From Tianweitania aestuarii (GTDB lineage Bacteria > Pseudomonadota > Alphaproteobacteria > Rhizobiales > Rhizobiaceae), in contig NZ_JAFMNX010000003.1 of the NCBI RefSeq assembly GCF_018457165.1, forward strand, positions 496,001 to 560,000: a DNA stretch of 64,000 bases, read 5' to 3'. The stretch's first letter is position 1, and every line of letters begins with the position of its first letter. Shown here piece by piece: positions 44,351 to 62,932 of this stretch. The notes under the pieces were generated by a model, which did not search any database, had not been told where the DNA came from, and saw nothing but the letters and a program-made list of their open reading frames with translations. A program made the position numbers and the translations under genes.

Positions 44351-46048
44351 GTGAGCGAACGGAGCATCGGGAACGGGGTTGAACAAGCAGCCAGCGCCAC
44401 CCCGCAAGCCGGCCCAGCCGTGGTGCTGCCAAGTTCGCCTTTGTCCCCCTTCCGCTCTCCCGTTTTCCGCGCCGTCTGGTTTGCCAGCCTCGCTTCCAAT
44501 CTCGGCGGACTGATCCAGTCCGTCGGTGCGGCCTGGCTGATGACCTCGATCGCACCGTCGGCCGACATGATCGCGCTGGTGCAGGCATCCACCACCTTGC
44601 CGGTGATGATCTTTTCCCTGGCATCGGGTGCTGTGGCCGACAACTTCAACCGCAAACGCGTGATGATGACGGCGCAGGCCTTCATGCTGGTTGTGTCGCT
44701 GTTTCTGGCGCTGTTCACCTATTTCGGCTGGATCACGCCGTGGATGCTGCTCGGCTTCACCTTCCTGATCGGCTGCGGCACGGCCCTGAACAACCCGTCC
44801 TGGCAGGCATCGGTTGGCGAGATGGTGCCGCGTAGCGATCTGCCTCATGCGGTGGCGCTCAACAGCGTCAACTTCAACCTGACGCGAAGCGTCGGTCCGG
44901 CGATCGGCGGTATCATCGTGGCGAGCGCCGGAGCGGTCGCGGCCTTTGCCGTTAACGCGCTGAGCTATCTGCCGCTTCTGTTCGTGATCTCACGCTGGAA
45001 GCTCGAAACGCCGCCGCGCACGCTGCCGCGCGAAACGCTGCTCAGCGCGATGTTTTCTGGTTTGCGCTATGTCGCCATGTCGCCGCAGATCGAAAAGGTC
45101 CTGTTGCGCGGTTTCCTGTTCGGCTTCACCGCCATCATCGTTCTGGCGCTTCTGCCGATCGTGGCGCGTGATCTGCCCAATGGCGGTCCGCTGCTTTATG
45201 GCCTTTTGCTCGGCTGCTACGGCATCGGTGCCGTTGGTGGTGCCTTTCTCGGCGGCAAGGTGCGCCAGATGACCTCCAACGAGAACATCGCGCGCGGGTC
45301 CTTTGTCGGCTTTGCCGTATCCGCTACCCTGATCGCCTATGGCGGCAACGAGGCGTTTGTGGCGCTCGGCATGCTGATCGGCGGTGCATGCTGGGTGCTG
45401 GCGCTGTCGATGTTCAACGTTACCGTGCAGCTCGCGACGCCGCGCTGGGTGCTCGGTCGTGCGCTTGCGCTTTATCAGACCGCAACCTTCGGCGGCATGG
45501 CGCTTGGCAGCTGGACCTGGGGCCTGGTGGCCGAAAGCCATGGCATTTCGGTCGCCTTGATCAGCGCTGCCGCGGTGATGCTGGCCAGTGCCGCGGTTGG
45601 TCTCAGTCTGCCGCTGCCCAATCTGTCGCGCGACAATCTCGAACCGCTCAACCGCTGGAAGGTGCCCAGCCTCGCACTGGATCTTCAAGGGCGCAGCGGG
45701 CCGATGGCGATCATGATCGAGCACATCATCCCCGAAAACTACACCGAGCGTTTCCTCAGCCTCATGCATGAGCGCCGCCGCATCATCCGGCGCGATGGCG
45801 GTCGCAACTGGGAGCTTTTGCGCGACACGCAGCATCCCGAGCAGTGGATCGAGACCTATCACGTCCCGACCTGGAACGATTACGTTCGCCACAACCAGCG
45901 CCGTACCCAGGCCGATGCGATCATCTACGACGCGGTGCGTGCGCTCCATGCCGGCAGCGAACCGCCAAAGGTGCATCGCATGGTCGTGCGGCCGACCGAC
46001 CCGCGTGAACCGGGCCTGCAAACCAAGACACCGGTCGATCTCGGCTAA
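44351..46048 (+). CDS. MFS transporter (MFS_3/EntS-like) with C-terminal soluble domain
   Basis: A 565-residue protein. About residues 30-420 form an MFS permease with RAVWFASLASNLGGLIQSVG, the motif-A-like GAVADNFNRKRVMM and TALNNPSWQASVGEMV, typical of the MFS_3 exporter group. The last ~130 residues are a soluble domain (IPENYTERFLSLMHERRRIIRRDG, ETYHVPTWNDYVRHNQRRT), probably a ferredoxin-like monooxygenase-type fold found fused to this MFS subset. The start is GTG 44351. Its stop overlaps the stop of the convergent PRTase/kinase-like gene by four bases. A GGTTCC/GGAACC inverted repeat (44160-44178) after the upstream gene may be a weak terminator. The substrate is unknown. Confidence 0.87.
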   Translation: MSERSIGNGVEQAASATPQAGPAVVLPSSPLSPFRSPVFRAVWFASLASNLGGLIQSVGAAWLMTSIAPSADMIALVQASTTLPVMIFSLASGAVADNFNRKRVMMTAQAFMLVVSLFLALFTYFGWITPWMLLGFTFLIGCGTALNNPSWQASVGEMVPRSDLPHAVALNSVNFNLTRSVGPAIGGIIVASAGAVAAFAVNALSYLPLLFVISRWKLETPPRTLPRETLLSAMFSGLRYVAMSPQIEKVLLRGFLFGFTAIIVLALLPIVARDLPNGGPLLYGLLLGCYGIGAVGGAFLGGKVRQMTSNENIARGSFVGFAVSATLIAYGGNEAFVALGMLIGGACWVLALSMFNVTVQLATPRWVLGRALALYQTATFGGMALGSWTWGLVAESHGISVALISAAAVMLASAAVGLSLPLPNLSRDNLEPLNRWKVPSLALDLQGRSGPMAIMIEHIIPENYTERFLSLMHERRRIIRRDGGRNWELLRDTQHPEQWIETYHVPTWNDYVRHNQRRTQADAIIYDAVRALHAGSEPPKVHRMVVRPTDPREPGLQTKTPVDLG

Positions 46049-47826
46049 AGCTGCATCAGTTGGTGCTTGCAGCGCTCGAGCAGATGGCGCAGCGCCGGCT
46101 TGTGATCGTCGGCTGCGGCATCGAGCGCCATGCTCCACAAGCCCGTTTGAAAGCCGAGGTAACAGGGCAAGAGCAGATCCATGAGCTCGCGCTCAATCGC
46201 TCGCCCGCTCCCGCATTCGACGTGGCTGACGAGCCGCTCGGTCTCATCCTGCGTCAGGTCGTGCTCGACAATGGCGCCGGCGATGTCCCAGGCGATGTCC
46301 TGACATCCAACGAGATCATGCGCGCCGCTATGGTCGAGCGCATCCGTCTTGATCAGGCGCTGATCGGGCGTCACCCGCCATTCCCATCGATGCAGTCGAC
46401 TGTCCGTATCGACCGGCCGAACCAGATGCTGCAGCGCCGCGGCACTGCCGGTCGCCTTGCGCACAAGCGCTTCCGCCTCGCCGCCAAAGGCCTGGCCCGC
46501 ATTGAAGGCGGCGACGTCCGCAAGGAGGGCAAGCGAAGCCCCTTCATTATGGGCGGGCAGAGTGGCGCGCACGGCGAGATAGGAACCGAGCGTTTGGAGG
46601 AGGCGAGCGCGATCATGATCGGCGGTGAGCGGTTCGCCCCCAACCCAGTGCTCGACGATCATGCCATGCAGGAGGGCGACCGGCTCGGCTGCGAAGCCTC
46701 CGCGATACAACACCTTCGCAACCTCGAACTTCCGCTGCCCTTCCGAACCCAGACCGGCAAATTTCACCAGGAAAGACCCGTTGGCCGTATCAGCCAGAAA
46801 CTTGCGTCGCTCCAGCCGTGCATCCACCGGCGACGACGCATCTTCCGCCCGTTTCCAGTTGCCCCATGAAAGATCCTGCAACGGGCGCTCGAGCGGCCCA
46901 AGCAGCGTTCCGATCCAGCCTTGCAGCCTGTTGTTCTGCAGAAAGGTCGTATCGAACGGGCGCACATGGCGCGGCGCCACCTCCCACCGCTGGCGATGAT
47001 CGGCGGGCGCCTGTCCGCCGGGCACGCCGGCATGGCTGGGGAAGAAGTGGATGCGATCGCGCGCAACACCGCCGCGTTCCAGCCAATCCGCCACCGCGAA
47101 AAAGGAGCTGCCGGACAGACCGGGGCCTTCATCCACGATGGCGATCGGTCCGTCGCCACGGGCAAGCACGGTGTCCAACAGTTGCGGATCGGCCTCGATC
47201 CTGCGCGCGAAAGGATCACCGGTGGGGCGAAGGCTGATCGGCGCTGGCGCTTTGAGCGCGGCCGCCACCAGACAAGACAGGCTCAAGCCGATGCTGCGGA
47301 TGCCGATGACGATCGTGTTGGAACCGAGACCGGACGCCTGCGCTGCTTCGAGATAGGTTTCCGGATAAAGCGCATAGATGCTGTAGCCTTCCGCACTGCG
47401 CGTGGTGATCGCACCTTGATAATCGCGCGCAACACCCTTCAAGTCGTCAACCAGCGTCTCGGGCACCACCTGTTCGGTGAAGCCGCTTTGCCAGCTGCGC
47501 TCGACGACACCCGCAAAGGCGAACAACAGCTGTGTCAGGATGGTCTGCTCGGGCGACGCCGCATCGAACCCGCGCTCGTGGAACGTCCTGTCGATCAGAC
47601 CCTGGATCAGTTCCGCCGCATCCACAAAGGCGCGGGCGATCGCCTCATGCCGTGCGATCCCGTTAGAAAGGGCGCTGGCATCATCGAGTGTTTGGACAAT
47701 GTGGGTCGCGAGATCCTGCACGTCGCCGGTTCTTTGCGCGTCGCCATACACCCACATAAGCAAGCCTTTACCGTTTATTGTGACGGGCAATGTCAGTTCG
47801 GTTGGGAAAGGCGCTGGAAGGAACAT
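46045..47826 (-). CDS. Large protein with phosphoribosyltransferase-like and APH/kinase-like halves
   Basis: A 593-residue protein that I do not recognise as a named family. Residues ~160-275 contain IAIVDEGPGLSGSSFFAVAD, which looks like the PRPP-binding loop of type I phosphoribosyltransferases (hydrophobic strand, acidic pair, Gly/Ser loop). From ~350, GSFLVKFAGLGSEGQRKFEVAKVL and HGMIVEHWVGGEPL resemble the N-lobe lysine and hinge of aminoglycoside phosphotransferase-type kinases. A late CQDIAWDIAGAIVEHDL resembles the APH D.a.DLA segment, although the usual HGD catalytic loop is altered (LIKTDALDH). It may phosphorylate or ribosylate a sugar or cyclitol. It is divergent from the inositol-phosphate synthase gene, with 53 bases between the starts. 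Confidence 0.6.
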   Translation of the reverse strand: MFLPAPFPTELTLPVTINGKGLLMWVYGDAQRTGDVQDLATHIVQTLDDASALSNGIARHEAIARAFVDAAELIQGLIDRTFHERGFDAASPEQTILTQLLFAFAGVVERSWQSGFTEQVVPETLVDDLKGVARDYQGAITTRSAEGYSIYALYPETYLEAAQASGLGSNTIVIGIRSIGLSLSCLVAAALKAPAPISLRPTGDPFARRIEADPQLLDTVLARGDGPIAIVDEGPGLSGSSFFAVADWLERGGVARDRIHFFPSHAGVPGGQAPADHRQRWEVAPRHVRPFDTTFLQNNRLQGWIGTLLGPLERPLQDLSWGNWKRAEDASSPVDARLERRKFLADTANGSFLVKFAGLGSEGQRKFEVAKVLYRGGFAAEPVALLHGMIVEHWVGGEPLTADHDRARLLQTLGSYLAVRATLPAHNEGASLALLADVAAFNAGQAFGGEAEALVRKATGSAAALQHLVRPVDTDSRLHRWEWRVTPDQRLIKTDALDHSGAHDLVGCQDIAWDIAGAIVEHDLTQDETERLVSHVECGSGRAIERELMDLLLPCYLGFQTGLWSMALDAAADDHKPALRHLLERCKHQLMQL

Positions 47827-49666: not shown

Positions 49667-50431
49667 TTGTCGCTTTCAAGCAGCGAAATAGAAGGGCGCA
49701 TCAGGGAACTCGGCCCCTGGTTTCACAACATCGAGCTGCAAGGGCAGTTCACGGCGCCCGACCATTTTCTCGGCAACTATCCGCAACAGAAATTCCGCAA
49801 GTTCGCCGATGCGATCCCCGCGGATCTGACCGGCAAGACGGTGCTCGATATCGGCTGCAATGGCGGCTTTTATTCGCTTGAAATGAAGCGCCGCGGCGCC
49901 GAGCGCGTGTTGGGCGTCGATTTCGACGAAGCCTATCTGGCGCAGGCGCGCTTCGTGGCCGAAGTGGAAGGCGCCGATATCGAGTTCCGTCAGCTGTCGG
50001 TTTATGATGTCGGCAAGCTCGGCGAACAGTTCGACGTCGTGATCTTCATGGGCGTGCTTTACCATCTGCGTCACCCGCTGCTGGCACTCGACCTGATCCG
50101 CGAGCATGTAGCCAAGGACATGCTCGTGTTCCAGTCCATGCAGCGCGGCAGTGCGCAGGTGCCGGTGCCTGAATTGGAAGAGAACTATCCGTTTGAACAA
50201 ACGGAGCTGTTCGACGATCCAGCCTATCCGAAGATGCATTTCATCGAGCGCCGCTACGCCAATGATCCCACCAACTGGTGGGTGCCGAACCGCGCCGGCA
50301 TGGAAGCCATGCTGCGCAGCGCCGGCTTCCGGATCGAGGCGCATCCCGAACAAGAAGTCTATATCTGCCGCACGACTGAACGCCCCTACGGCGCAGAAGC
50401 GATTTACCCCGCGAAAGGAGACCGCCCATGA
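49667..50431 (+). CDS. SAM-dependent methyltransferase of a glycan/natural-product type cluster (Rta_06860-like)
   Basis: A 254-residue class I methyltransferase. Motif I is TVLDIGCNGGFYSLEMKRRGA, followed by VLGVDFDEAYLAQARF and FDVVIFMGVLYHLRHPLLAL. The N-terminus WFHNIELQGQFTAPDHFLGNYP and the late NDPTNWWVPNRAGMEAMLRSAGF resemble tRNA cmo5U-type methyltransferases (CmoB-like) and, as I recall, the Rta_06860-type family associated with sugar clusters. The start is TTG 49667 with AAGGAGAT 7 bases before it. Its stop overlaps the glycosidase start (ATGA). It probably methylates a sugar or inositol hydroxyl or carboxyl. Confidence 0.8.
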   Translation: MSLSSSEIEGRIRELGPWFHNIELQGQFTAPDHFLGNYPQQKFRKFADAIPADLTGKTVLDIGCNGGFYSLEMKRRGAERVLGVDFDEAYLAQARFVAEVEGADIEFRQLSVYDVGKLGEQFDVVIFMGVLYHLRHPLLALDLIREHVAKDMLVFQSMQRGSAQVPVPELEENYPFEQTELFDDPAYPKMHFIERRYANDPTNWWVPNRAGMEAMLRSAGFRIEAHPEQEVYICRTTERPYGAEAIYPAKGDRP

Positions 50432-51363
50432 TCGAAGCGGCGATGATCTGGAACGAACCCAACAACAAGTCGCATTGGGATCCCGAGATCGATCCGGACT
50501 GGTCGAAATTCGCTGATATGGCCAAGCTCGCCGGTCAGGCGATCGCAGCCGAGGCACCTGGGCTCACGCGCGTGTTGGGCGGCATTTCGCCGATCGATCC
50601 GATCTTCATCAACCGCATGAAGGACTTCGGCGTGCTCGACCATGTCGACGCCGTTGCCGTTCACGGTTTCCCGCTCGACTGGAATCTGTGGCAGATCGGG
50701 GAATGGCCGCAGAAGGTGCAGGAAATCCGCGCGCTCACCCATCTGCCGGTCTGGGTCAGCGAGGTCGGTATCTCGACCTTTGGCGCCGAAGAAGTGCAGC
50801 TTTGGGGCATCAAGCGCACGGCGGAGCTTTTGAAAGGCCAGGCGCCGCGCGTTCACTGGTATTCGCTTTATGACCTGCCGCGTGAATGGGAAGCCACCAC
50901 GCGTCATCGCGAAGCGGAAGGCTCTTCCTATTATCGCCACTTCTACATGGGCCTTCTGCGCCAGGACGGCACGCCGAAGCCCTCGGCCGAAGCCTTTGCC
51001 GAGCTGACGCCGGATATGGGCGTGGTGCAGTGGTTCCATTATCATGACCACCGCCTCGAAGACGCCGTTGCCTGGATGAAGCGCCTCGGCGTCACCTATC
51101 TGCGCACGGGCATTTCCTGGGCCGACAGCTTCCGCCCCAATGCGCTCGACTGGTTCGACAAGCAGATGGAAGCGCTGGCTGATTTCGACGTGACGGTCAC
51201 CTACTGCTTCACGCCCGAGCATCGCGGGATCGCGCCGCATCATTCCAGTGCGCCACAGGTGCCGGAAGAGTTCGCGGAATTCTGCGCCGCCATGACGCGC
51301 CGGTATGCCGGTTCGTCCAAGCGCAACCAGACGGTGCCGGCAACAACGCCCGCGCTCGTTTGA
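50428..51363 (+). CDS. Glycoside hydrolase with apparently circularly permuted clan GH-A barrel (xylosidase-like)
   Basis: A 311-residue cytoplasmic protein without signal peptide. Residues 5-13 (AMIWNEPNN) hold the clan GH-A acid/base Glu10, and SEVGISTFG gives the nucleophile Glu112, as in GH39-type beta-xylosidases. These motifs normally sit after the first three barrel strands. Here the segment that normally precedes them (AVAWMKRLGVTYLRTGISW, VTVTYCFTPEHRG, EEFAEFCAAMTRRYA) comes at residues 213-294, after the nucleophile half. The start is fixed by the ATGA overlap with the methyltransferase. It may transfer or trim a xylosyl residue. UDP-xylose synthesis genes lie in the same cluster. 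Confidence 0.78.
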   Translation: MIEAAMIWNEPNNKSHWDPEIDPDWSKFADMAKLAGQAIAAEAPGLTRVLGGISPIDPIFINRMKDFGVLDHVDAVAVHGFPLDWNLWQIGEWPQKVQEIRALTHLPVWVSEVGISTFGAEEVQLWGIKRTAELLKGQAPRVHWYSLYDLPREWEATTRHREAEGSSYYRHFYMGLLRQDGTPKPSAEAFAELTPDMGVVQWFHYHDHRLEDAVAWMKRLGVTYLRTGISWADSFRPNALDWFDKQMEALADFDVTVTYCFTPEHRGIAPHHSSAPQVPEEFAEFCAAMTRRYAGSSKRNQTVPATTPALV

Positions 51364-51385
51364 GCCGGACAGGAGCCTGAAACGA

Positions 51386-51410
51386 AAAGGGAGCGCCGAG
51401 CGCTCCCTTT
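51386..51410. terminator. Bidirectional rho-independent terminator
   Basis: AAAGGGAGCG / CGCTCCCTTT form a 10-base stem with a CCGAG loop, flanked by A on the left and TTTTTT on the right. It lies between the glycosidase (stop 51363) and the convergent Gfo/Idh gene (stop 51412) and serves both. Confidence 0.85.
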
Positions 51411-51411
51411 T

Positions 51412-52407
51412 TTATGCGATACCGTAGATGCGATCGAGAACGCGCGACACATCCACGATCCGCTCGGCTTGTGGGTCGAAGCGCTTGCTCACAGCAAGCC
51501 GCTGCGCCCAATCCTGCGCGGCCCGCACGCCCCATTCGTCGGGTGGCGAAACCAAAGTTTCGCTCGATGTGCCGCGAAAGCGCTTGGCCGTGAAGTCATA
51601 GAACGAGCCGTTGACGTTGCGCAGTTCTGCGCCGCCCCCTGCGCCATAGAAGGCAGCCGAGATCACCGCTTCTTGCCCCGCATGCAGCTGCCACGAACAG
51701 GCGATGCGCACGATCGTACCGGAGCCCAGCCGGAACGAGGCCACGGCATAATCCTCGACGGCCTCCGGATTGGCTTCGAGCAGCTTGCCGTCGGACAGAA
51801 GATGGCCGCTGACGTCGCTCACCTCCGGAAAATCGAGCACCCAAAGCGCCAGATCGATCAGATGCACGCCCAGATCGATCAAGCAGCCGCCGCCAGACAG
51901 ATTGCGGTCATAAAACCACGGCTTGCCCGGCCCGTAAGCGTTGTGGAAGGTGAGGTCGATCGCGCGGATGTCGCCGAGCTGTCCGCCCTGAACCAATTCG
52001 CGGATAGCCTGAACGCCGGCGGTGAAGCGATAGGAGAAATCCACGCCAAGCAGCCGATCAGCCTCCCGTGCCGCATCGATCACGGCCTGCACTTCGCGAG
52101 CCGAACGGCCAAGCGGCTTCTGACAGAACACGGCAACGCCGGCTTTCAACGCCGCAATCGATTGATCCGCATGCAGGGCGCTCGGCGTGGCGATCACCAA
52201 ACCGTCGAGATCCTGCGCCAGCACATCTTCCAGCGTCGTCCCGACCGCCGCGCCCGGCACGAGCTTGGCGGCTTCCTCTGTCATCTCGGGCGAGGGGTCG
52301 GCAACGGCGACCACCTCGACGGCTCCCGTCTCGATGATCCCTTCCATCCGGTGCCGGCCGATCCAGCCGACGCCGAGGAAACCGATGCGTGGCTTGGCAG
52401 CGCTCAT
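51412..52407 (-). CDS. Gfo/Idh/MocA family NAD(P)-dependent oxidoreductase
   Basis: A 331-residue sugar/cyclitol dehydrogenase. The Rossmann motif is IGFLGVGWIGRHRMEGI, the EKP motif appears as FCQKPLGRSAREVQ, and the catalytic region has LIDLGVHLIDLALWVL (D...H). Members oxidise inositols, glucose-fructose or NDP-sugars. It overlaps the preceding MDR gene by ATGA and is the last gene of a three-gene reverse-strand operon with UDP-glucose dehydrogenase. With inositol synthase nearby, an inositol or NDP-sugar substrate is plausible, but this is inferred. Confidence 0.87.
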   Translation of the reverse strand: MSAAKPRIGFLGVGWIGRHRMEGIIETGAVEVVAVADPSPEMTEEAAKLVPGAAVGTTLEDVLAQDLDGLVIATPSALHADQSIAALKAGVAVFCQKPLGRSAREVQAVIDAAREADRLLGVDFSYRFTAGVQAIRELVQGGQLGDIRAIDLTFHNAYGPGKPWFYDRNLSGGGCLIDLGVHLIDLALWVLDFPEVSDVSGHLLSDGKLLEANPEAVEDYAVASFRLGSGTIVRIACSWQLHAGQEAVISAAFYGAGGGAELRNVNGSFYDFTAKRFRGTSSETLVSPPDEWGVRAAQDWAQRLAVSKRFDPQAERIVDVSRVLDRIYGIA

Positions 52408-53399
52408 TGCGGCACCACCAGCGCCTTGAGGAAGCCGTCCGGCCGGTCGCGCGTGGCGTTCAAGGCGGTGCCAAGCTCTTCGAGCGGATAGGTGTGGGTA
52501 TAAAGCGGCGTCGGGTCGAGCCGGCCGCTGACCACCGCATCCACGGCCTCGCGCATGCCGCGAACATAGATCGCGGGATCGCGCTCATGCGCGTTGATCA
52601 CGTCGAGCCCGCGCCAGTTCCACATCTGCATGTTGACCTGACGCGGCCCATCCTGATGGTAACCGGCGATGATCAGGCGGCCGCGCTCCATCGTCAGTTC
52701 GCCGGCCAGATCCAGCGGCCATTGCTTGCCGACCGCTTCGATCACGCGATCACAGAAGCGTCCGCCTGTCAGCTGCTTGACCTGTTCGATGATCGCCCAG
52801 TGATCCTCCATCGGGATCACCTCGGCAGCCCCCATCGCTTTCGCAAAGTCCAAGGAGAACGGCCGTCGCGAAATGGCGATGACGCGCGCGCCGGCCTTGG
52901 AGGCAAGCTGTGTCAGCAGGGCGCCAAGAAAACCGATGCCGATGATCGCCACGGTCTGCCCGGCCTCGATCTCTGCGCGGCGAAAGATGTTCATGGCGCA
53001 GCCCAGCGGTTCGCCAGGGAACGGTTTTCCGGCAAGGGTATCCGGCAAACGAACCGCCATATCGGCCGCAACCGTGTCATAAGCGGCATAGGCGTGCTGG
53101 GAGAGCGCTGCTACCCGGTCGCCGACGGCAAAGTCGGTCACACCATCTCCCCGCGCCTCGATTACGCCCCAGCCTTCATGCCCGAGACCGCCTGGTTCGG
53201 TCGGAAATTTCATCCAGTCCGGCCCGCTCCATGGACCGAGATTGGACGCGCACACCCCGGTGCCTTCCAGCCGGAGGAGGATCTCGCCGGCTTTCGGTTG
53301 GGGAATGGCGACCTGATCGACCTGCATCTGGCCGGCGCCGGTCACGACAGCGGCCTTCATCGTGCCGCGGTTGCCTGCGGCTTTCTCGTTGATGGACAT
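52404..53399 (-). CDS. Medium-chain dehydrogenase (threonine/sorbitol dehydrogenase-like, MDR)
   Basis: A 331-residue MDR protein. Catalytic-zinc ligands may be Cys of EGTGVCASNLGPW and His-Glu of LGHEGWGVIEA. The structural-zinc four-Cys loop is absent (DRVAALSQHAYAAYD). The cofactor site is VAIIGIGFLGALLTQLASKAGA. It is 8 bases after UDP-glucose dehydrogenase and overlaps the Gfo/Idh gene. It may work in sequence with that enzyme on a sugar alcohol or cyclitol. An N-terminal start at the Met of TMKAAVV, 13 codons in, is also possible. Confidence 0.85.
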   Translation of the reverse strand: MSINEKAAGNRGTMKAAVVTGAGQMQVDQVAIPQPKAGEILLRLEGTGVCASNLGPWSGPDWMKFPTEPGGLGHEGWGVIEARGDGVTDFAVGDRVAALSQHAYAAYDTVAADMAVRLPDTLAGKPFPGEPLGCAMNIFRRAEIEAGQTVAIIGIGFLGALLTQLASKAGARVIAISRRPFSLDFAKAMGAAEVIPMEDHWAIIEQVKQLTGGRFCDRVIEAVGKQWPLDLAGELTMERGRLIIAGYHQDGPRQVNMQMWNWRGLDVINAHERDPAIYVRGMREAVDAVVSGRLDPTPLYTHTYPLEELGTALNATRDRPDGFLKALVVPQ

Positions 53400-53407
53400 G
53401 ATGCTGC

Positions 53408-54799
53408 TCAGCCTGCCGAAGACGTGGCCGTCATCGCACGCTCAACCGTGCGCGATGCAGGTTTCGCGACCTGCACCGCCGCGCTGGCACGGCTGACCGT
53501 TGGCCGGCCGATGCTGAGATAGGTGAGGTCGAGGTCGGTCATGTCGGATGGCAGCCAGAGATTGCGGTAATCGGCCAAAAGCGCGCCGCGCATCGTGCCG
53601 GCGATTTTGGCGAGATCGAGGTGGCGATACTCGTCCCATTCCGTCAGCACGATCACGCCATCGGCGTCGCGCGCGGCGTCATAGGCGTTGTCGCAGAAGG
53701 TGATGTCGTCCAGCTGCTTGGCCGCTTCCGTCATCGCTTTCGGATCATGCGCCTTGATGCGGCAGCCAGCCTTTTGCAGCCAGGGAATGATGGCGAGGCT
53801 GGGTGAGTCCCGGATATCGTCGGTGTTGGCTTTGAAGGCGAGGCCGAGCACGGCGATCGTCGCGCCGTTTGCCTTGCTTCCAAGCTCGCGCAGCACGCGT
53901 TCCGCCAGCATCCGCGAGCGGGCTTCGTTGCCTTCGATCAGCGTTTCGATCAGCCCCTGCGGCGCATCATGCTTGCGCCCCGTTGCGGCAAAGGCGCGGG
54001 TGTCCTTGGGAAAGCACGAACCGCCGAAGCCGGGGCCAGCCGACAGAAAGGCCGAGCCGATGCGGGTGTCGAGCCCGATGCCGGCCGCAACGGCCGACAC
54101 ATCGCCGCCCACCTGCTCGCAGAGATTGGCGACATCGTTGATGAAGCCGATCTTGAGGGCGAGAAAGGCGTTGGCGGAATATTTGATCAGCTCGGCATTG
54201 GCGTTGCTGGTACGCATCACGGTCACGCCACGATCGGCCAGCGGTTGATAGATCTGTTCGAGCACGGCGCAGGCGCGTGGATCGTCCGATCCGAACACCA
54301 CCCGCTCGGGCTCGAGGAAGTCGCGCACGGCCGTGCCTTCGCGCAGGAACTCGGGATTGGAGGCGATCGAAAAATCGAGCGCGCCGCGTTCTTCCGCAAT
54401 GATCTCGCGCAGCGCCTTGCAGGTGCCCACCACGACGGTTGACTTCACCACGACAACGCAGTTCGGCTTGATCACCCTGGCGATGCCGCGCGCCGCGTCC
54501 TGAACGAAGGACAGGTCGATGTCACCATCGGCAAGCGAGGGCGTTCCGACCGCGATGAAGACCGCATCCGCATCGGCAGCGCCGTCAACCGTGTCGGCGC
54601 TGAACAGGAGGCGGCCGGCCTGGATATTGGAGGCCATCAATTCCTGAAGTCCGGGCTCGTAGATCGGCACTTCGCCGGCCCGCAGGCGCGCCACGCGATC
54701 TTCGTTCATGTCGATGCAGGTGACATGGTGACCAAGTTCCGCCAGACAGGTTCCGGACGTCAGCCCCACATAACCGGCACCGATAATCGTGATCTTCAT
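53408..54799 (-). CDS. UDP-glucose 6-dehydrogenase
   Basis: A 463-residue member of the UDP-glucose/GDP-mannose dehydrogenase family. The NAD site is KITIIGAGYVGLTSGTCLAE, with YEPGLQEL and SNPEFLREGTAVRDF blocks. The catalytic Cys is in AGPGFGGSCFPKDTRA, and the C-terminal domain has LAFKANTDDIRDSPSL. It makes UDP-glucuronate, the precursor for the UDP-xylose synthase at 61946. ATG 54799 gives the normal start; an upstream in-frame codon is rejected. It is the first gene of the reverse-strand operon. A C-terminal Ala/Thr-rich tail of about 30 residues is extra. Confidence 0.92.
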   Translation of the reverse strand: MKITIIGAGYVGLTSGTCLAELGHHVTCIDMNEDRVARLRAGEVPIYEPGLQELMASNIQAGRLLFSADTVDGAADADAVFIAVGTPSLADGDIDLSFVQDAARGIARVIKPNCVVVVKSTVVVGTCKALREIIAEERGALDFSIASNPEFLREGTAVRDFLEPERVVFGSDDPRACAVLEQIYQPLADRGVTVMRTSNANAELIKYSANAFLALKIGFINDVANLCEQVGGDVSAVAAGIGLDTRIGSAFLSAGPGFGGSCFPKDTRAFAATGRKHDAPQGLIETLIEGNEARSRMLAERVLRELGSKANGATIAVLGLAFKANTDDIRDSPSLAIIPWLQKAGCRIKAHDPKAMTEAAKQLDDITFCDNAYDAARDADGVIVLTEWDEYRHLDLAKIAGTMRGALLADYRNLWLPSDMTDLDLTYLSIGRPTVSRASAAVQVAKPASRTVERAMTATSSAG

Positions 54800-55235
54800 A
54801 TGTCCCTCAACTTCGGTGGGCGCCGGCGGCATCATCGAGTGAGCCGCCCGAACCTTTGATCGATGCTCCCGTCGGATAGGGGTGCAGCGTTCTTCTTCAT
54901 GTCGTCAACTTCGGAGAATTCGGGAGGGACATCAAGCTTTGTAGCCCTGTCGAGCATAAGCGTGGTGACATTGCATGAAACGGACAAGCCGTTTTCGAGC
55001 TCAGTTCCAAGCGCTCCTGCTCAGCATTCACCATGCAAAATCCTGAAGACCCTCATTGAAGCGGCAGCTAGAGCATCAGCAGCTACGTTCAAGTGGATGA
55101 TGCCACGCCGACGACCTTGGGGAACTGCCGGTGATTGTCGGTAGGGATCAGGCAAAGGGTTGGTGCTCCCCCACTTCCCGAGTAGAAGATCCTCCCTAAT
55201 TATGTCGGCGCAGTGAGCTGAGGAGCGACAAGCAG
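54800..55235. other. 436-base divergent intergenic region between the two sugar operons
   Basis: Separates UDP-glucose dehydrogenase (reverse) from the first epimerase (forward). It must contain both promoters, but I see no recognisable operator, riboswitch or EcfG site. A 41-codon reverse frame (54832-54957) has no ribosome site and no similarity that I recognise. The base composition looks less coding-like than the surroundings. Confidence 0.5.
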
Positions 55236-56378: not shown

Positions 56379-57473
56379 GTGGCAGGACCTGCGATCGTCG
56401 AAGGCGGTCAGACAGTCGTTATCGTTGGCGGCAGCGGCTTCATCGGATCGAATTTGGCGGAAAGCTTCCTTCGTGAAGGCCGGCACGTCACGATTCTGGA
56501 CAATCTCAGCCGTCCCGGCGTCGAAGAAAACCTTGCCTGGCTGACTGCCACCTATGGCGATCTCGTTGAAGCCGCCCGTGTCGATATCCGCGACACGGCG
56601 GCCCTCGTTCCGGTTGTCAGCAGAGCGAGCGCGGTGTTCCACCTCGCCGCCCAAACGGCCGTCACCACCAGCCTCGTTGATCCCATGGACGACTTCGAGG
56701 TCAATGCGCGCGGCACGCTGAACATTCTGGAAGCGATCCGTGCCACGGGCCGTCGCGTACCGGTGATCTTTGCCAGCACCAACAAGGTCTATGGCGGCCT
56801 TGAAGACATGGAGATGGTGGAAGGCGACGAGCGCTACCATCCCGCCGACGAGGCCATCGGCGATCATGGCGTCAGCGAAAGCCGTCCGCTCGATTTCTGC
56901 ACGCCTTATGGCTGCTCCAAGGGCGTGGCGGACCAGTATGTGCTGGATTACGCCAAGTCCTATGATCTGCCGACCGCCGTTTTGCGCATGAGCTGCATCT
57001 ATGGTCCGCGCCAGTTCGGCACCGAGGATCAGGGCTGGGTCGCACACTTCCTGCTCAAGGCGCTGCGCGGCGAACAGGTGTCGATCTATGGCAACGGCAA
57101 GCAGGTGCGCGACATCCTGCATGTCAGCGATTGCGTGGCGGCCTATCGCGGTCTGCTCGATCATATCGACGAGGTGTCCGGCCAGGCCTTCAATCTCGGC
57201 GGTGGACCGCAGAACAGCGTCAGCCTGCGCACCGTGTTGAGCGAAATCGCCCGTTTGACGGGCCGCAACATGCAGCTCGAGCATGGTGAATGGCGCAAGG
57301 GCGACCAGTTCTATTTCGTCGCCGATACGCGCAAGATCGAACAAGCGATCGGCTGGGAAGCCAAGACCGACTGGAAAGAGGGCCTGGCGGATCTCGCCCG
57401 CTGGCTGGCCGAAAACCGCGTCGCGTCCAGAGCGGCGAAAGAGCAGCCGGAGCAACAGGTTCTGTCGGCGTGA
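56379..57473 (+). CDS. NAD-dependent epimerase (CDP-paratose/tyvelose 2-epimerase-like extended SDR)
   Basis: A 364-residue extended SDR. The NAD motif is VVIVGGSGFIGSNLAESF, with catalytic FASTNKVYGGLEDM and YxxxK TPYGCSKGVADQYV. The block LRMSCIYGPRQFGTEDQGWV is characteristic of the CDP-paratose 2-epimerase-like group, so a C2 epimerase is a reasonable guess. The start is GTG 56379 and the stop overlaps the next gene by GTGA. Second sugar-modifying enzyme of the operon. Confidence 0.85.
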   Translation: MAGPAIVEGGQTVVIVGGSGFIGSNLAESFLREGRHVTILDNLSRPGVEENLAWLTATYGDLVEAARVDIRDTAALVPVVSRASAVFHLAAQTAVTTSLVDPMDDFEVNARGTLNILEAIRATGRRVPVIFASTNKVYGGLEDMEMVEGDERYHPADEAIGDHGVSESRPLDFCTPYGCSKGVADQYVLDYAKSYDLPTAVLRMSCIYGPRQFGTEDQGWVAHFLLKALRGEQVSIYGNGKQVRDILHVSDCVAAYRGLLDHIDEVSGQAFNLGGGPQNSVSLRTVLSEIARLTGRNMQLEHGEWRKGDQFYFVADTRKIEQAIGWEAKTDWKEGLADLARWLAENRVASRAAKEQPEQQVLSA

Positions 57474-58627
57474 AGGCAGCAGGTCGCGCGGCAGGCGAAG
57501 GATCGAACATCGAAACAGCCGCAGACGGGCAGCGCCCCCTGCGCGTCCTGATGACGGTGGATGCCGTTGGCGGTGTCTGGCGCTACGCGATGGACCTTGC
57601 CGCCGGCCTGCAAGCCTCCGGTGTTCATTTTATCTTCGTCGGTCTCGGTCCGAATCCATCCCCCGCGCAGCGCTCCGAAGCCGAGCGTTGGGGAAAGCTG
57701 ATCTGGGAAGATGCACAGCTCGACTGGCTGGCTGAAGGCCCGCAAGATCTGGCTGATCTTCCAGCCCTCCTGGAGCGGCTCGTCGGCGAAGAAGGCGTCG
57801 ACCTTCTTCATCTCAACGCACCCTCGCAAGCCTGTGGTTTGAAGCTCGACTGCCCGATCGTGGCGATGTCGCATTCCTGCGTCGTGACCTGGATGCACGC
57901 CGTTCGCGGTCAGGAGGTTCCGGCGCAATGGTCGTGGCAGAAACGGCTCAACCGCGAAGGCTTCGATGCCGCCGATGTCGTTCTTGCGCCAAGCCGCAGC
58001 CACGCCGACGCGCTGGAACAATGCTACGGCCCGATCGACGCTTTGTCGGTGGTCTACAACGCTTCCCAGGCAGGCGCCGAGATCGCGCAGCGCCAGCCCT
58101 TCGTGTTTGCCGCCGGCCGTTGGTGGGACGAAGGCAAGAATGGCGCGGTTCTGGACGACGTTGCGGGGCAGGTGGAGTGGCCGGTGCAACTTGCCGGAGC
58201 GCTGAAAGGGCCGAACGGCCAGCAGATCAACCTGCAACAGGCGGATCATCTGGGCGTTCTGCCGACCGCGCAGATCCAGGAGCTGATGAAGGCTGCCGGC
58301 ATCTTCGTGTCGCCATCGCTTTACGAGCCCTTTGGCCTGGCTCCGCTTGAAGCTGCGTGCACCGCGACGCCGCTGGTTCTCGCCGACATTCCGACCTACC
58401 GCGAATTGTGGGATGGCGCGGCCTTGTTTGCCTCGCCGCGCGATCCCGCTTCCTTTGTGGAAGCGCTCCAAACGCTGATCGCAAGCGAGACGCTGCGCCG
58501 CGACATGGGCCGCAAGGCCCTGGATCGCGCCAAACGCTATTCCCTCCAAGCGCAGGCGCAAGCCATGCTGCAGATCTACGACGCTGTTTGCGTGGCGGCC
58601 GAGCCGCGCCTGGTTTTATCGAGCTGA
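57470..58627 (+). CDS. Glycosyltransferase, GT4-like (GT-B fold)
   Basis: A 385-residue glycosyltransferase starting at GTG 57470, overlapping the epimerase stop. The N-terminal domain begins LRVLMTVDAVGGVWRYAMDL, a GT4/GT5-like acceptor site. The C-terminal donor site has the E-x7-E pattern in SPSLYEPFGLAPLEAACTATP, followed by LVLADIPTYRELW. It would transfer a sugar from a nucleotide donor in the cytosol. No membrane segment is present. The frame is open upstream, but the overlap start is preferred. Confidence 0.87.
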   Translation: MKAAGRAAGEGSNIETAADGQRPLRVLMTVDAVGGVWRYAMDLAAGLQASGVHFIFVGLGPNPSPAQRSEAERWGKLIWEDAQLDWLAEGPQDLADLPALLERLVGEEGVDLLHLNAPSQACGLKLDCPIVAMSHSCVVTWMHAVRGQEVPAQWSWQKRLNREGFDAADVVLAPSRSHADALEQCYGPIDALSVVYNASQAGAEIAQRQPFVFAAGRWWDEGKNGAVLDDVAGQVEWPVQLAGALKGPNGQQINLQQADHLGVLPTAQIQELMKAAGIFVSPSLYEPFGLAPLEAACTATPLVLADIPTYRELWDGAALFASPRDPASFVEALQTLIASETLRRDMGRKALDRAKRYSLQAQAQAMLQIYDAVCVAAEPRLVLSS

Positions 58628-58630
58628 TTG

Positions 58631-59755
58631 ATGAGAATTCTTCTTTATACCCATTCCCTCCTGTCCGACTGGAACCACGGCAACGCGCATTTCCTGCGCG
58701 GCGTCATGCGCGATCTGGTTGAACGCGGCTATCAAGCCAGGGCGCTGGAGCCGGTTGATGCCTGGAGCCGCGAGAACCTGGTGAAGGATCAGGGCGAGGC
58801 CGCCGTTGCGCGCTTCGCGCAGGATTTCCCCACGCTCCAGTCCGAGCAATACGATGCCGACTTTGACCATGAAGCAGCCCTTGATGGGGCCGATGTGGTG
58901 CTCGTGCATGAATGGACCGACCCTGCGCTGGTGGCGCGTATCGGCAAGGCGCGCCGGGATGGCGGCCGTTTCACCCTGATCTTCCACGACACGCATCACC
59001 GTGCCGTTTCGGCCGAAAGCGACATCGGCGGCCTTGATCTGAGCGGCTACGATGCCGTGCTCGCATTCGGCGAAACGCTGCGCGAGCGCTATATCAAGGC
59101 CGGTTGGGGACGGCGCGTCTTTACCTGGCATGAGGCGGCCGATGATCGCTTGTTCAAGCCGCATCCCGAGATAGAGAAGACCGGCGACCTGATCTGGATC
59201 GGTAACTGGGGTGACGACGAGCGCACCGCCGAGATTGCCTCCTTCCTCACCGAACCGGCGGCCAGACTGCAGCTGAACGGGACCGTTCGCGGCGTGCGCT
59301 ACCCGCAGCGCGCTTTGGACTCGCTGGAAAAGGCCGGGCTGAACTATGGCGGCTGGATCGCCAATGCGGATGTGCCGATGGCCTTTGCACGACACAAGCT
59401 GACCATGCACATCCCACGCCGGCCCTATGTGGAATCGCTGCCGGGTATTCCCACGATCCGCATGTTTGAAGCGCTGGCTTGTGGCATTCCGCTGATTTCG
59501 GCCCCGTGGAACGACGCAGAAGGTCTGTTTCGCGCCGGCAAGGACTTCCTGTTCGCCAAGGACGGCGAGGAGATGACCCGACTGATCCGTGATCTGCTGG
59601 CCGATCCGGCGCGCCGCGAGGAGATCGCGGCATCCGGTCTGGAAACCATCCGCGCCCGCCACACCTGCCGCCACCGGGTCGATGAATTGCTGGCGATCCT
59701 GTCCGGCCTCGATGTCGATATCACCCCATCCAATTCCAAGGAGACCGCAGCGTGA
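58631..59755 (+). CDS. CgeB-like glycosyltransferase, first of three tandem paralogues
   Basis: A 374-residue GT-B protein of the CgeB/Glyco_trans_1_2 type. The N-terminus (LLYTHSLLSDWNHGNAHFLR) shares the pattern S-L-L-S-x-W-x-x-G-x-A with the next two genes. The C-terminal donor region is IRMFEALACGIPLISAPWND. ATG 58631 is used; a TTG immediately before it is possible. It follows the GT4-like gene by 3 bases. CgeB-like proteins are known from spore-coat and maturation polysaccharides. The acceptor here is unknown. Confidence 0.82.
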   Translation: MRILLYTHSLLSDWNHGNAHFLRGVMRDLVERGYQARALEPVDAWSRENLVKDQGEAAVARFAQDFPTLQSEQYDADFDHEAALDGADVVLVHEWTDPALVARIGKARRDGGRFTLIFHDTHHRAVSAESDIGGLDLSGYDAVLAFGETLRERYIKAGWGRRVFTWHEAADDRLFKPHPEIEKTGDLIWIGNWGDDERTAEIASFLTEPAARLQLNGTVRGVRYPQRALDSLEKAGLNYGGWIANADVPMAFARHKLTMHIPRRPYVESLPGIPTIRMFEALACGIPLISAPWNDAEGLFRAGKDFLFAKDGEEMTRLIRDLLADPARREEIAASGLETIRARHTCRHRVDELLAILSGLDVDITPSNSKETAA

Positions 59756-60843
59756 AGATTGCATTCTACGGCTCGAGCCTGCTGTCGTCCTACTGGAACG
59801 GCGCTGCCACCTATTATCGCGGCCTGCTGCGCAACCTGGCGGCCCTCGGCTATGACATCACCTTCTATGAGCCGGATGTGTATGACCGGCAGAAGAACCG
59901 CGACATCGAGCCGCCGGAATGGTGCAAGGTCGTGGTGTATGACGGCACGGTCGAGGCGCTGCGCAATGCGGCGGCCAAGGCTGCGGATGCCGACATCGTC
60001 GTGAAAACCAGCGGCGTCGGCTTCGAGGACAATCGGCTGCTCGACGAAGTGCTGCGCGCCGCGCGGCCGGGTGCGATGAAGATCTTCTGGGATGTCGATG
60101 CGCCGGCGACGCTCGCCGAACTGCGTGCGGATCCCGATCATCCGCAGTTGAAGGCGCTGAATGAGATCGACGCGGTGCTGACCTATGGCGGCGGCGATCC
60201 CGTGGTGAACGCTTACACCGCAATCGGCGCCAAGCGCTGTATTCCGATCTACAATGCGCTTGACCCGCAAACGCATCATCCGGTTGATCCCGATCCGCGC
60301 TTCACCGCCGATCTCGCTTTCCTCGGCAACCGTTTGCCGGATCGCGAAGCGCGGGTCGAAAGCTTCTTCCTGAACCCCGCCGCTGGCCTGCCCGAGCAGC
60401 GTTTCATTTTGGGTGGATCCGGCTGGGGCGACAAGCCGATGGCCGGCAACATCGATTATATCGGCCATGTCGGCACGCGCGATCACAACGCCTTCAACGT
60501 CACGCCAAAGGCCGTGCTGAACATCTCCCGCGACTCCATGGCAGATATGGGCTTTTCGCCGGCAACCCGGGTGTTCGAAGCCTGCGGCGCCGGCGCTTGT
60601 CTCATTACCGATGCCTGGCTCGGCGTCGACTTCTTCCTCAAGCCCGACGAGGAAGTGCTGGTGGCGCGCGATGGCAAAGACGTCGCCGACATCCTGTCCG
60701 GCCTGACGCCCGAGCGCGCCCGAGAGATCGGCCAAGCGGGTCTCGCACGTGTGTTGCGCGATCACACCTATGCCGACCGCGCCGCCGAAGCCGACGTGAT
60801 CTTCCGCGACTTTCGCGCCAAACAGGCGGAGGCTGCCGAATGA
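59752..60843 (+). CDS. CgeB-like glycosyltransferase, second of three tandem paralogues
   Basis: A 363-residue GT-B protein beginning KIAFYGSSLLSSYWNGAATY with a typical YRGLLRNLAALGY helix. Donor-site block TRVFEACGAGACLITDAWLG. The start is GTG 59752, overlapping the previous stop (GTGA), and its own stop overlaps the next start (ATGA). It is clearly paralogous to both neighbours, so the three probably arose by tandem duplication and add successive sugars. Confidence 0.83.
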   Translation: MKIAFYGSSLLSSYWNGAATYYRGLLRNLAALGYDITFYEPDVYDRQKNRDIEPPEWCKVVVYDGTVEALRNAAAKAADADIVVKTSGVGFEDNRLLDEVLRAARPGAMKIFWDVDAPATLAELRADPDHPQLKALNEIDAVLTYGGGDPVVNAYTAIGAKRCIPIYNALDPQTHHPVDPDPRFTADLAFLGNRLPDREARVESFFLNPAAGLPEQRFILGGSGWGDKPMAGNIDYIGHVGTRDHNAFNVTPKAVLNISRDSMADMGFSPATRVFEACGAGACLITDAWLGVDFFLKPDEEVLVARDGKDVADILSGLTPERAREIGQAGLARVLRDHTYADRAAEADVIFRDFRAKQAEAAE

Positions 60844-61949
60844 GTGACGCGCTCGACATCGTCATTATCGGCCTGTCGCTGTCGTCATCCTGGGGCAACG
60901 GTCATGCCACGACCTATCGCGGCATGCTGCGCGGGCTCGAGGCGCTGGGCCACCGCGTCACGTTTCTGGAACGCGACGTGCCCTGGTACGCCGCCCATCG
61001 CGATCTGCCGTCGCCGGATTTCTGCGCCCTGCATTACTACGATACGGTGGACGAGCTGATCACCCGTTTCGGCGAAAAGATCAGGCAGGCCGACGCGGTG
61101 ATCATCGGCTCCTACGTGCCGGAAGGGCCAAAGGTCATCGACGCCGTTCACGCACTGAACCCAAAGCAGCTCACCTTCTACGACATCGACACGCCGATCA
61201 CCGTTGCGCGCCTGAAAAAGGGCGACGAGGAATATCTGGCGGCACGTCAGGTGCCGTTCTTCGATATCTATTTCTCCTTCACCGGCGGTCCCACGCTGCG
61301 CCAGCTGGAAAGCGAGTTCGGCGCGCCGCGGGCCGAAGCGCTGTATTGCTCCGTTGACGACACGCGCTACCGCAACACCGGCGAAGCGCCGATCTGGGAC
61401 CTCGGCTATCTCGGTACTTATAGCGACGACCGCCAGCCTACCCTCGAAGCGCTGCTGATCGAGCCTGCCCGCCGTTTGCCGCATCTGAAGTTCGTGGTAG
61501 CCGGGCCGCAATATCCCGACACGATCGACTGGCCTTCGAATGTCGAGCGCATCGACCATCTGCCGCCGGCCGAGCATCCTTCTTTCTACAGCCGCCAGCG
61601 CTTCACGCTGAACGTCACGCGCGCGGACATGATCGCCGCCGGCTGGTCGCCAAGCGTGCGCTTGTTCGAGGCCGCCGCCTGCGGCACCGCGATCATCAGC
61701 GACTTCTGGGAAGGCCTGGGCGATCTGCTGCCGTTGGGCGAAGCGATCGAGATCGCCAGGACCAGCGACGATGTGGTGCAGATCCTGACCGAAATGGATG
61801 AACAGCGCCGACAGGCGATGGCGGAAGCCGCAAAGGCGCGTGTTCTGGCCGGTCATACCGGACATGCGCGCGCGGCCGAGCTGGCGGATTATCTGCGCAA
61901 CGGCGCATCGAAAGCGGCACGTGCCGCGACGACTGAGGAATTGGCATGA
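60840..61949 (+). CDS. CgeB-like glycosyltransferase, third of three tandem paralogues
   Basis: A 369-residue GT-B protein: DIVIIGLSLSSSWGNGHATT then YRGMLRGLEALGHRVTFLERD at the N-terminus, and SVRLFEAAACGTAIISDFWE in the donor domain. ATG 60840 overlaps the previous stop; an open frame further upstream is ignored. It closely follows the layout of its two upstream neighbours and overlaps the UDP-xylose synthase start by ATGA, so a xylosyl donor is an attractive guess for this subset. Confidence 0.83.
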   Translation: MSDALDIVIIGLSLSSSWGNGHATTYRGMLRGLEALGHRVTFLERDVPWYAAHRDLPSPDFCALHYYDTVDELITRFGEKIRQADAVIIGSYVPEGPKVIDAVHALNPKQLTFYDIDTPITVARLKKGDEEYLAARQVPFFDIYFSFTGGPTLRQLESEFGAPRAEALYCSVDDTRYRNTGEAPIWDLGYLGTYSDDRQPTLEALLIEPARRLPHLKFVVAGPQYPDTIDWPSNVERIDHLPPAEHPSFYSRQRFTLNVTRADMIAAGWSPSVRLFEAAACGTAIISDFWEGLGDLLPLGEAIEIARTSDDVVQILTEMDEQRRQAMAEAAKARVLAGHTGHARAAELADYLRNGASKAARAATTEELA

Positions 61950-62932
61950 TGAACCAAGCAACATCGTCCGGCAAAACGGCCATGGTGACCGGCGGCGCCG
62001 GCTTCCTCGGCTCGCATCTGTGCGACCGGCTGTTGGAGCAAGGCATGCAGGTGATCTGCGTCGACAGCCTGCTGACCGGTTCGATGCGCAACATCGCGCA
62101 TCTCGAGAATATTACGCAGTTCCGTTTCATCAAGCAGGATGTCTGCGAGCCGCTCGACATCAAGGACGATCTCGATTTCGTCTATAACCTCGCCTGTGCG
62201 GCCTCGCCGCCGCGCTATCAGGCAGACCCGATCCACACGATGATGACATCGGTGCAGGGCACGCTGAACCTGCTGATGCTGGCTGAAGCCAAGGGCGCCA
62301 GGTTCTTGCAGGCCTCCACCAGCGAAGTCTATGGCGATCCCGACCGGCATCCGCAGGCCGAAGACTACCACGGCAACGTCAACTGCACGGGACCGCGCGC
62401 CTGTTACGACGAAGGCAAGCGTGCCGCGGAGTCGCTCTGCTTCGACTTCCTGCGTCTGGGCCGCGCCGATGTGCGCGTCATGCGCATCTTCAACACCTAT
62501 GGGCCGCGCATGGACCCCGATGATGGGCGCATCGTGTCCAATCTCGTTGTGCAAGCGCTTCGCGGCCAGCCGCTGACGATCTACGGCACCGGCGAGCAAA
62601 CGCGCTCGTTCTGTTACGTGTCGGACCTGATTGCGGGCATGATGGCGCTGATGACGGTGGCCGAGAACCCGAAGGCGCCGGTCAATATCGGAAATCCCGG
62701 CGAGTTCACCATCAACGAACTGGCAAAGCTGGTGGTGGAACAAACCGGCACGTCAAGCGAAACCGTGTTCAAGCCCTTGCCGGTCGATGATCCAACGCGC
62801 CGGCGTCCCGATATCAGCCGCGCAAAGGCGCTGCTTAACTGGGAGCCGACCGTGCCGCTGGAAAAAGGCCTGCGCGATACGATCGCGCATTTCCGCGAGC
62901 GCGTGGCCGACGAAAAAGGCCACGCTGCATGA
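61946..62932 (+). CDS. UDP-glucuronate decarboxylase (UDP-xylose synthase)
   Basis: A 328-residue extended SDR of the UXS type. The NAD motif is AMVTGGAGFLGSHLCDRL, with ACAASPPRYQADPIHT and QASTSEVYGDP; the catalytic YxxxK lies in GPRACYDEGKRAAES, with YDEGKR a UXS hallmark, followed by RIFNTYGPRMDPDDGRIVSN. It converts UDP-glucuronate (from the dehydrogenase at 53408) to UDP-xylose. The start overlaps the last CgeB-like gene by ATGA. Last gene of the glycosylation operon. Confidence 0.92.
   Translation: MMNQATSSGKTAMVTGGAGFLGSHLCDRLLEQGMQVICVDSLLTGSMRNIAHLENITQFRFIKQDVCEPLDIKDDLDFVYNLACAASPPRYQADPIHTMMTSVQGTLNLLMLAEAKGARFLQASTSEVYGDPDRHPQAEDYHGNVNCTGPRACYDEGKRAAESLCFDFLRLGRADVRVMRIFNTYGPRMDPDDGRIVSNLVVQALRGQPLTIYGTGEQTRSFCYVSDLIAGMMALMTVAENPKAPVNIGNPGEFTINELAKLVVEQTGTSSETVFKPLPVDDPTRRRPDISRAKALLNWEPTVPLEKGLRDTIAHFRERVADEKGHAA

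Follow-up and report, generated by a model that had tools for sequence, protein, structure and literature searches.

The canonical strand order of the (β/α)8 barrel is general in clan GH-A, where the two catalytic glutamates stand at the ends of β4, with an Asn before the Glu, and of β7. PslG of Pseudomonas aeruginosa (PDB 5bx9 and 4zn2), which we take to be assigned to GH39 and which is the closest solved relative of the protein described here, has this order; its substrate is the Psl exopolysaccharide, and its site of action lies outside the cytoplasm. Barrels with a rearranged chain do occur in nature: transaldolase is a permuted aldolase barrel, and the usual route to permutation is a tandem duplication followed by loss of both ends. 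Among glycosidases, the GH70 glucansucrases have a naturally permuted barrel that runs α3-β4…β8-β1…β3 relative to GH13, according to the accessible part of PMC11046441, and the part of PMC10223318 available to us describes MalS (GH13 subfamily 19) as a permuted glycosidase with the domain order C-A-B-A-C. Permuted glycosidase barrels are therefore already known from GH70, but in the open-access literature, which is all that was searched, we found no report of a natural circular permutation in clan GH-A, the largest glycosidase clan (PMC8447715, accessible part).

Here we analyzed a window of 64,000 nucleotides from Tianweitania aestuarii (Rhizobiaceae; assembly GCF_018457165.1, contig NZ_JAFMNX010000003.1, positions 496,001 to 560,000 of the forward strand), to which all coordinates below refer. 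A gene at 50428..51363 (+) encodes a protein of 311 residues (P0001), for which the initial annotation had proposed a natural circular permutation of a clan GH-A glycosidase. We confirm that the product is a complete clan GH-A-type (β/α)8 barrel, circularly permuted so that β4-β8 precede β1-β3; the assignment rests on a rotation scan, on two swapped profile pieces and on an AlphaFold2 model. Enzymes permuted in this way occur in bacteria of soil and plants. The catalytic motifs lie in the 311-residue ORF where they had been placed: WNEPNN at residues 8-13 (50449..50466, +), with the predicted acid/base Glu10 at 50455-50457, and SEVG at residues 111-114 (50758..50769, +), with the predicted nucleophile Glu112 at 50761-50763, both identified from the sequence and its conservation. 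The segments that usually stand N-terminal to WNEP are indeed found late in the chain, namely LRTGISW at residues 225-231, VTVTYCFTP at 255-263 and EEFAEFCAAMTRRYA at 280-294.

To describe the chain order, we compared a profile built from 11 canonical barrels with a permuted set of 107 sequences (104 distinct, three repeating another). Every one of the 107 matches the profile as exactly two swapped pieces that cover its columns once, first from columns 103-106 to 283-292 and then from columns 1-2 to 99-106, with a linker of 1-6 residues in between, and a continuous match in canonical order was found in none of them (0/107). In P0001, the first piece comprises residues 1-195 (50428..51012, +) and contains β4 to β8 and the last helix, corresponding approximately to columns 103-292, while residues 196-294 (51013..51309, +) make up the second piece with β1 to β3 and α3, approximately columns 1-106. 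The break in the chain is located between α3 and β4, and the old termini are joined by the short linker. The alignment of homologues suggested by the initial annotation, with 29 sequences, agrees in the order and in most motifs.

A rotation scan, in which all 296 rotations of residues 1-296 of P0001 were scored by their best single stretch against a profile of canonical homologues, peaked at a start at residues 195-197 with 182.8 bits, compared with 116.3 bits for the native order. The swap of residues 195-311 before residues 1-194 that had been put forward from the sequence alone is thereby supported by profile scoring. As a control, only 165 of 200 shuffles of P0001 scored at all, with a maximum of 3.1 bits. 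In the reverse test, in which the canonical sequence L097 was compared with the permuted profile, the highest score was reached with a cut at its own WNEP (117.7 vs 80.3). Single-sequence profiles of three distant relatives gave a less uniform result. Only L093 reproduced the cut, with a peak at 195-199; L091 scored best near residue 215 (42.3 vs 28.3 for the native order) and the outgroup L095 near residue 97 (27.7 vs 16.2 bits), both with low scores. In phmmer, PslG matches native P0001 in two pieces in reversed order with an E of 0.035 and swapped P0001 as one continuous stretch with an E of 5.3e-6. After the swap, P0001 is 34% identical along its length to the canonical barrel L090, a member of the epimerase-fused sister family, so that the homology, together with the 182.8 bits of the scan, extends over the full barrel.

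The AlphaFold2 model of native P0001, computed with 29 sequences, has eight strands in order with a pTM of 0.83 and a mean pLDDT of 79.3; it is a prediction, and no structure has been solved. The complete eight-strand barrel in the model removes one outcome that would have refuted the permutation, an incomplete (β/α)8 fold. Glu10 follows the strand of residues 4-9 and Glu112 lies within the strand of residues 108-113. The confidence of the model is low in the loop 157-169 and in residues 11-16 beside the acid/base, and the variable C-terminal tail (residues 295-311; 51310..51360, +) is predicted to be disordered, with pLDDT below 50 for residues 296-311. At this end of the chain, the permuted ORF L145 of genome G879 stops at a TGA just after the RRYA helix, while the P0001 match extends slightly beyond. 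Foldseek and VIA-align matched whole TIM barrels over residues 1-295 of P0001 (best Z 13.7, rmsd 3.5, 217 aligned). These matches are to TIM barrels in general, not to clan GH-A specifically: GH5 endoglucanases, which belong to the clan, reach a Z of about 12-13 amid GH20, GH84 and epimerase barrels, all tied within 1 Z, and no GH39 enzyme was found among the best 50 matches listed. Because sequential aligners slide round an eight-fold barrel, the fold searches neither support nor refute the permutation.

We then considered whether the order could have arisen from the gene model. The ATG start codon of P0001 shares an ATGA (50428..50431, +) with the stop codon of the ORF upstream of it (49667-50431), as seen directly in the sequence, and the initial annotation had argued from this overlap that the order is no annotation artefact. 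That argument is borne out by related loci. In the best 80 of 457 relatives from a scan of genome contigs, a start codon is present at the residue-1 position in 79 (ATG 73, GTG 5, TTG 1), and the remaining locus, L013, has a GTG one codon upstream. An in-frame stop stands immediately 5′ of the ATG in three of these loci (L004, L007 and L027) and 1-4 codons 5′ of the start in five more (L009, L047, L051, L063 and L075), which makes a hidden N-terminal half impossible in these 8 of the 80. A misplaced start, a frameshift or an inversion confined to this genome is practically inconceivable, given that several alphaproteobacterial families show the identical order, in 107 sequences of which 104 are distinct, and that the gene is under purifying selection.

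P0001 could also be the remnant of two tandem barrels, or a chain that lacks its first half and depends on a partner. Since permutation usually arises via tandem duplication, such remnants could exist. However, the profile columns are covered only once, the 80 loci (best of 457) contain no conserved upstream extension or extra N-terminal half in any homologue, and of the 61 ORFs that matched in the searched loci none has more than two profile pieces, so neither a duplication intermediate nor the truncation plus duplication that would have refuted the initial annotation was seen. We give this explanation very little weight. Taken as candidates, an artefact, a truncation and a misplaced start were rejected on the basis of the kept start positions, the swapped pieces that cover the profile once and the family-wide order.

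Given that the permuted enzymes share one order, we searched for homologues that retain the canonical one. A search of 299 genomes of the phylum with P0001 gave matches in 15. The permuted gene is present in nine of these, and five have distant matches only. In the last, G265, both query parts share a single open frame but their order is swapped, and this ORF encodes a canonical barrel with an NAD-dependent epimerase behind it. When the order was searched with the G265 barrel, 27 of 297 genomes matched, and the L098 barrel matched 14 of 385 genomes of the class. These searches yielded the further canonical forms L098, L099, L100, L131-L137 and L142, and others came from Rhizobium plasmids. Among the latter, RHE_RS22270 on p42b of R. 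etli CFN 42, annotated as an NAD-dependent epimerase/dehydratase, contains a homologous barrel with the same catalytic motifs in the same gene cluster. The Rhizobium domain differs from the permuted enzyme in its canonical order and in its fusion to the epimerase.

Similarity to enzymes of known structure is more distant. In a search with a profile of five canonical domains and swapped P0001, PslG matched over columns 7-283 with an E of 3.1e-11; unlike P0001, it has the canonical order. The GH39 β-xylosidases (PDB 1px8, 1w91, 2bs9 and 6uqj) gave partial profile matches only (E 5.7e-4 to 5.4e-3); they are larger proteins of canonical order with weak similarity to the permuted protein. The Pfam GH39 model found no match at E 0.1 in native P0001 or at E 1 in swapped P0001, the GH70 family profile is absent from the Pfam matches of P0001 up to E 0.1, and a comparison with the NCBIfam models gave no match at E 0.01. 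The sole Pfam match to E 0.1 is PF11790, below its cut-off for the native and the swapped order alike, with profile position 67 aligned to residue 3. With no Pfam or NCBIfam family above its cut-off, enzymes of this kind escape annotation based on linear profiles.

The catalytic residues of the clan are kept in the permuted family. N9-E10 and E112 align with the canonical WNEPNN and W-I/V-T-E motifs and meet the clan GH-A rule for the catalytic pair. Twelve catalytic and neighboring positions, which include W8, N9, E10, H79, E112, W144 and R226, are invariant in 107/107 permuted sequences, and P11 is likewise invariant in all 107. For the four pairs computed, dN/dS was 0.009/0.493, 0.073/1.184, 0.125/1.090 and 0.136/1.244, all far below 1, and on this comparison of sequences the permuted gene is under purifying selection. 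Judged by the invariant glutamate pair and by its resemblance to PslG, the enzyme would be a retaining β-glycosidase or transglycosidase, although both activity and mechanism are inferred. It is conceivable that the permuted chain folds but is catalytically idle and serves in sugar binding or as a scaffold, like a pseudoenzyme. No activity is known for the permuted protein, and the fused canonical domains of two genomes, G379 and G879, persist despite lost catalytic residues, so a non-catalytic role can be imagined. Against this, both glutamates and ten further checked positions are invariant in 107/107 sequences, and the permuted copy retains its catalytic residues where the canonical domain decays. 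We therefore regard an idle protein as unlikely, though it keeps more weight than any other alternative considered here, and we retain the reading of P0001 as a presumably active enzyme. Its cytoplasmic placement is inferred from the lack of a visible signal peptide in P0001 and from the fusion of the canonical form to an enzyme of cytosolic type.

The genes around P0001 suggest the pathway in which it may act. Upstream on the + strand are an inositol-3-phosphate synthase-like protein (PF01658; 47880..48998), a histidine phosphatase family protein (PF00300; 48995..49594) and a TIGR04290 family methyltransferase (49667..50431; 379.4 bits, cut-off 300). Farther upstream, a 593-aa protein at 46045-47826 (−) is matched neither by Pfam at E 0.1 nor by NCBIfam at E 0.01, and relatives with about 44% identity occur in 32 of the 80 loci. 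Downstream on the − strand are a Gfo/Idh/MocA oxidoreductase (51412..52407), a zinc-binding dehydrogenase (52404..53399) and a UDP-glucose/GDP-mannose dehydrogenase family protein (53408..54835). The best NCBIfam hits of the first two, inositol 2-dehydrogenase and scyllo-inosose 3-dehydrogenase, respectively, are far below cut-off; these inositol-type hits of the dehydrogenases at 51412-53399 (−), near an inositol-phosphate synthase, hint that the cluster may involve inositol chemistry. Between the converging genes, a perfect G+C-rich hairpin flanked by A and T runs at 51385-51413 resembles, as judged from its sequence, a two-way terminator. The + strand then carries NAD-dependent epimerase 1 (PF01370; 55236..56342) and the free-standing NAD-dependent epimerase 2 (56379..57473), whose Rhizobium counterpart has the canonical GH domain fused in front, followed by a glycosyltransferase of family 4 type (57290..58627) and three glycosyltransferases of PF13524 (58628..59755, 59752..60843 and 60597..61949); for the first and the last of these four the ORF is given as listed and the true start is probably later. 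An NAD-epimerase/dehydratase family protein (61946..62932, +), judged from its position and below-cut-off hits, takes the place of the UDP-glucuronic acid decarboxylase of the Rhizobium and Sinorhizobium clusters.

This arrangement is recurrent. In the 80 loci (best of 457), which reach at most 6 kb to each side of the permuted gene, the TIGR04290 methyltransferase is directly upstream of it in 75, and the inositol-phosphate synthase and the histidine phosphatase are present in 76 and 75, respectively. The pSymB cluster of Sinorhizobium meliloti carries the permuted gene, and so does a plasmid of Roseomonas mucosa, with the same neighbors and an SDR oxidoreductase but without an annotated decarboxylase in the stretch. 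In the matching clusters of R. etli p42b and R. leguminosarum pR132503, the canonical barrel is fused to the second epimerase, and both also hold the Gfo/Idh and zinc dehydrogenases, two epimerases, glycosyltransferases, the UDP-glucuronic acid decarboxylase and TIGR04290; the inositol-phosphate synthase and the phosphatase are absent from these two stretches. The permuted and canonical forms thus occupy the same cluster of glycosyltransferases, UDP-sugar enzymes and the TIGR04290 methyltransferase, which has the appearance of a pathway, so far undescribed, to a methylated glycoside; no paper on TIGR04290 was found in the open-access literature. Annotation places UDP-glucuronate decarboxylase, a source of UDP-xylose, in the S. 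meliloti region and the two Rhizobium regions but not in that of Roseomonas (three of four annotated regions), and some PLSDB plasmid records name the permuted protein 'beta-xylosidase', which is a name only. Together these give no more than hints of a xylose substrate.

The distribution of the two forms bears on how the permuted enzyme came about. TIGR04290 matches 10 of the 299 genomes of the phylum, namely G265, which has the canonical form, and the nine that carry the permuted gene; the scans with TIGR04290 and with P0001 covered 299 genomes each, and the genomes listed agree. Twelve genomes have the fused canonical form. In nine of them the barrel is intact and the permuted gene is absent, and the other three carry both forms. 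Close inspection of these three showed that the canonical domain of G379 (L100) lacks WNEP and that of G879 (L137) lacks both WNEP and the nucleophile Glu, with the permuted copy intact in each, while in G744 the canonical domain is cut by a contig end and cannot be judged. As the nine genomes with an intact canonical barrel all lack the permuted gene and two of the three co-occurring canonical domains are damaged, the permuted enzyme has probably replaced the canonical one, although the sample is small.

In a tree without outgroups, computed from 44 of the 107 permuted rows and 11 canonical ones (the degenerate L100 was dropped, and L088 and L089 were not included), one branch separates permuted from canonical sequences with a support of 100/100, so one permutation event suffices. 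The two forms are merely two sides of this branch, and the tree by itself would allow the permuted order to be ancestral and the epimerase-fused canonical form to be derived. The outgroup-rooted tree does not help, as its outgroup branches of 8-10 changes per column are very long and it places the permuted row L139 apart; it is unreliable, and the argument for the direction of the change is taken instead from how the strands are ordered in other enzymes of clan GH-A. There, L091, L093, L095 and the solved PslG are all canonical, as is the clan in general, and starting from a permuted ancestor the chain would have had to be permuted once more to regain exactly this order, which leaves this alternative hardly credible. 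We infer that the canonical order came first.

Considered together, these results are very probably best explained by a permuted clan GH-A-type glycosidase with a canonical-like active site, as predicted, a catalytic activity that is inferred, and a likewise inferred single origin and takeover. The chain would start at β4, with the acid/base Glu10 near its end, proceed through β7, which carries the nucleophile Glu112, and β8, connect the former C and N termini through the linker of 1-6 residues, and end with β1-β3 and helix α3; the prediction is that its folded barrel and active site are the same as those of the canonical enzyme. Judging from its motifs and surroundings, the protein would be a cytoplasmic retaining β-glycosidase or transglycosidase that may trim or rearrange a glycoside made by the neighboring epimerases, glycosyltransferases and TIGR04290 methyltransferase, possibly one that carries xylose or glucuronate on inositol as the acceptor. 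The permuted enzyme would have arisen once from a canonical enzyme and assumed its task, after which those fused canonical domains that remained beside it may have decayed.

Among known permuted glycosidases, the GH70 glucansucrases are the nearest parallel, with a cut within one helix of that in P0001, as far as the accessible part of PMC11046441 allows the comparison. They differ in their catalytic residues and chemistry and are large, secreted proteins of several domains. The permutation of MalS concerns domain order and lies outside clan GH-A (PMC10223318, accessible part). On balance, we lean toward a joint reading in which P0001 represents the first natural permutation in clan GH-A, a single event freed the glycosidase from the epimerase fusion, and the free enzyme spread through Alphaproteobacteria within the same pathway, replaced its ancestor functionally in full and left neighboring canonical copies as dead relics, at a cut site that GH70 hit independently. 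If that independent hit at α3/β4 is true, it suggests that this loop is a privileged site at which glycosidase barrels can be reopened, and the near coincidence of the two cuts makes a preference of permutation for this loop directly testable. The canonical homologues in the same cluster of related bacteria provide matched pairs in which the effect of strand order on folding, stability and catalysis may be compared.
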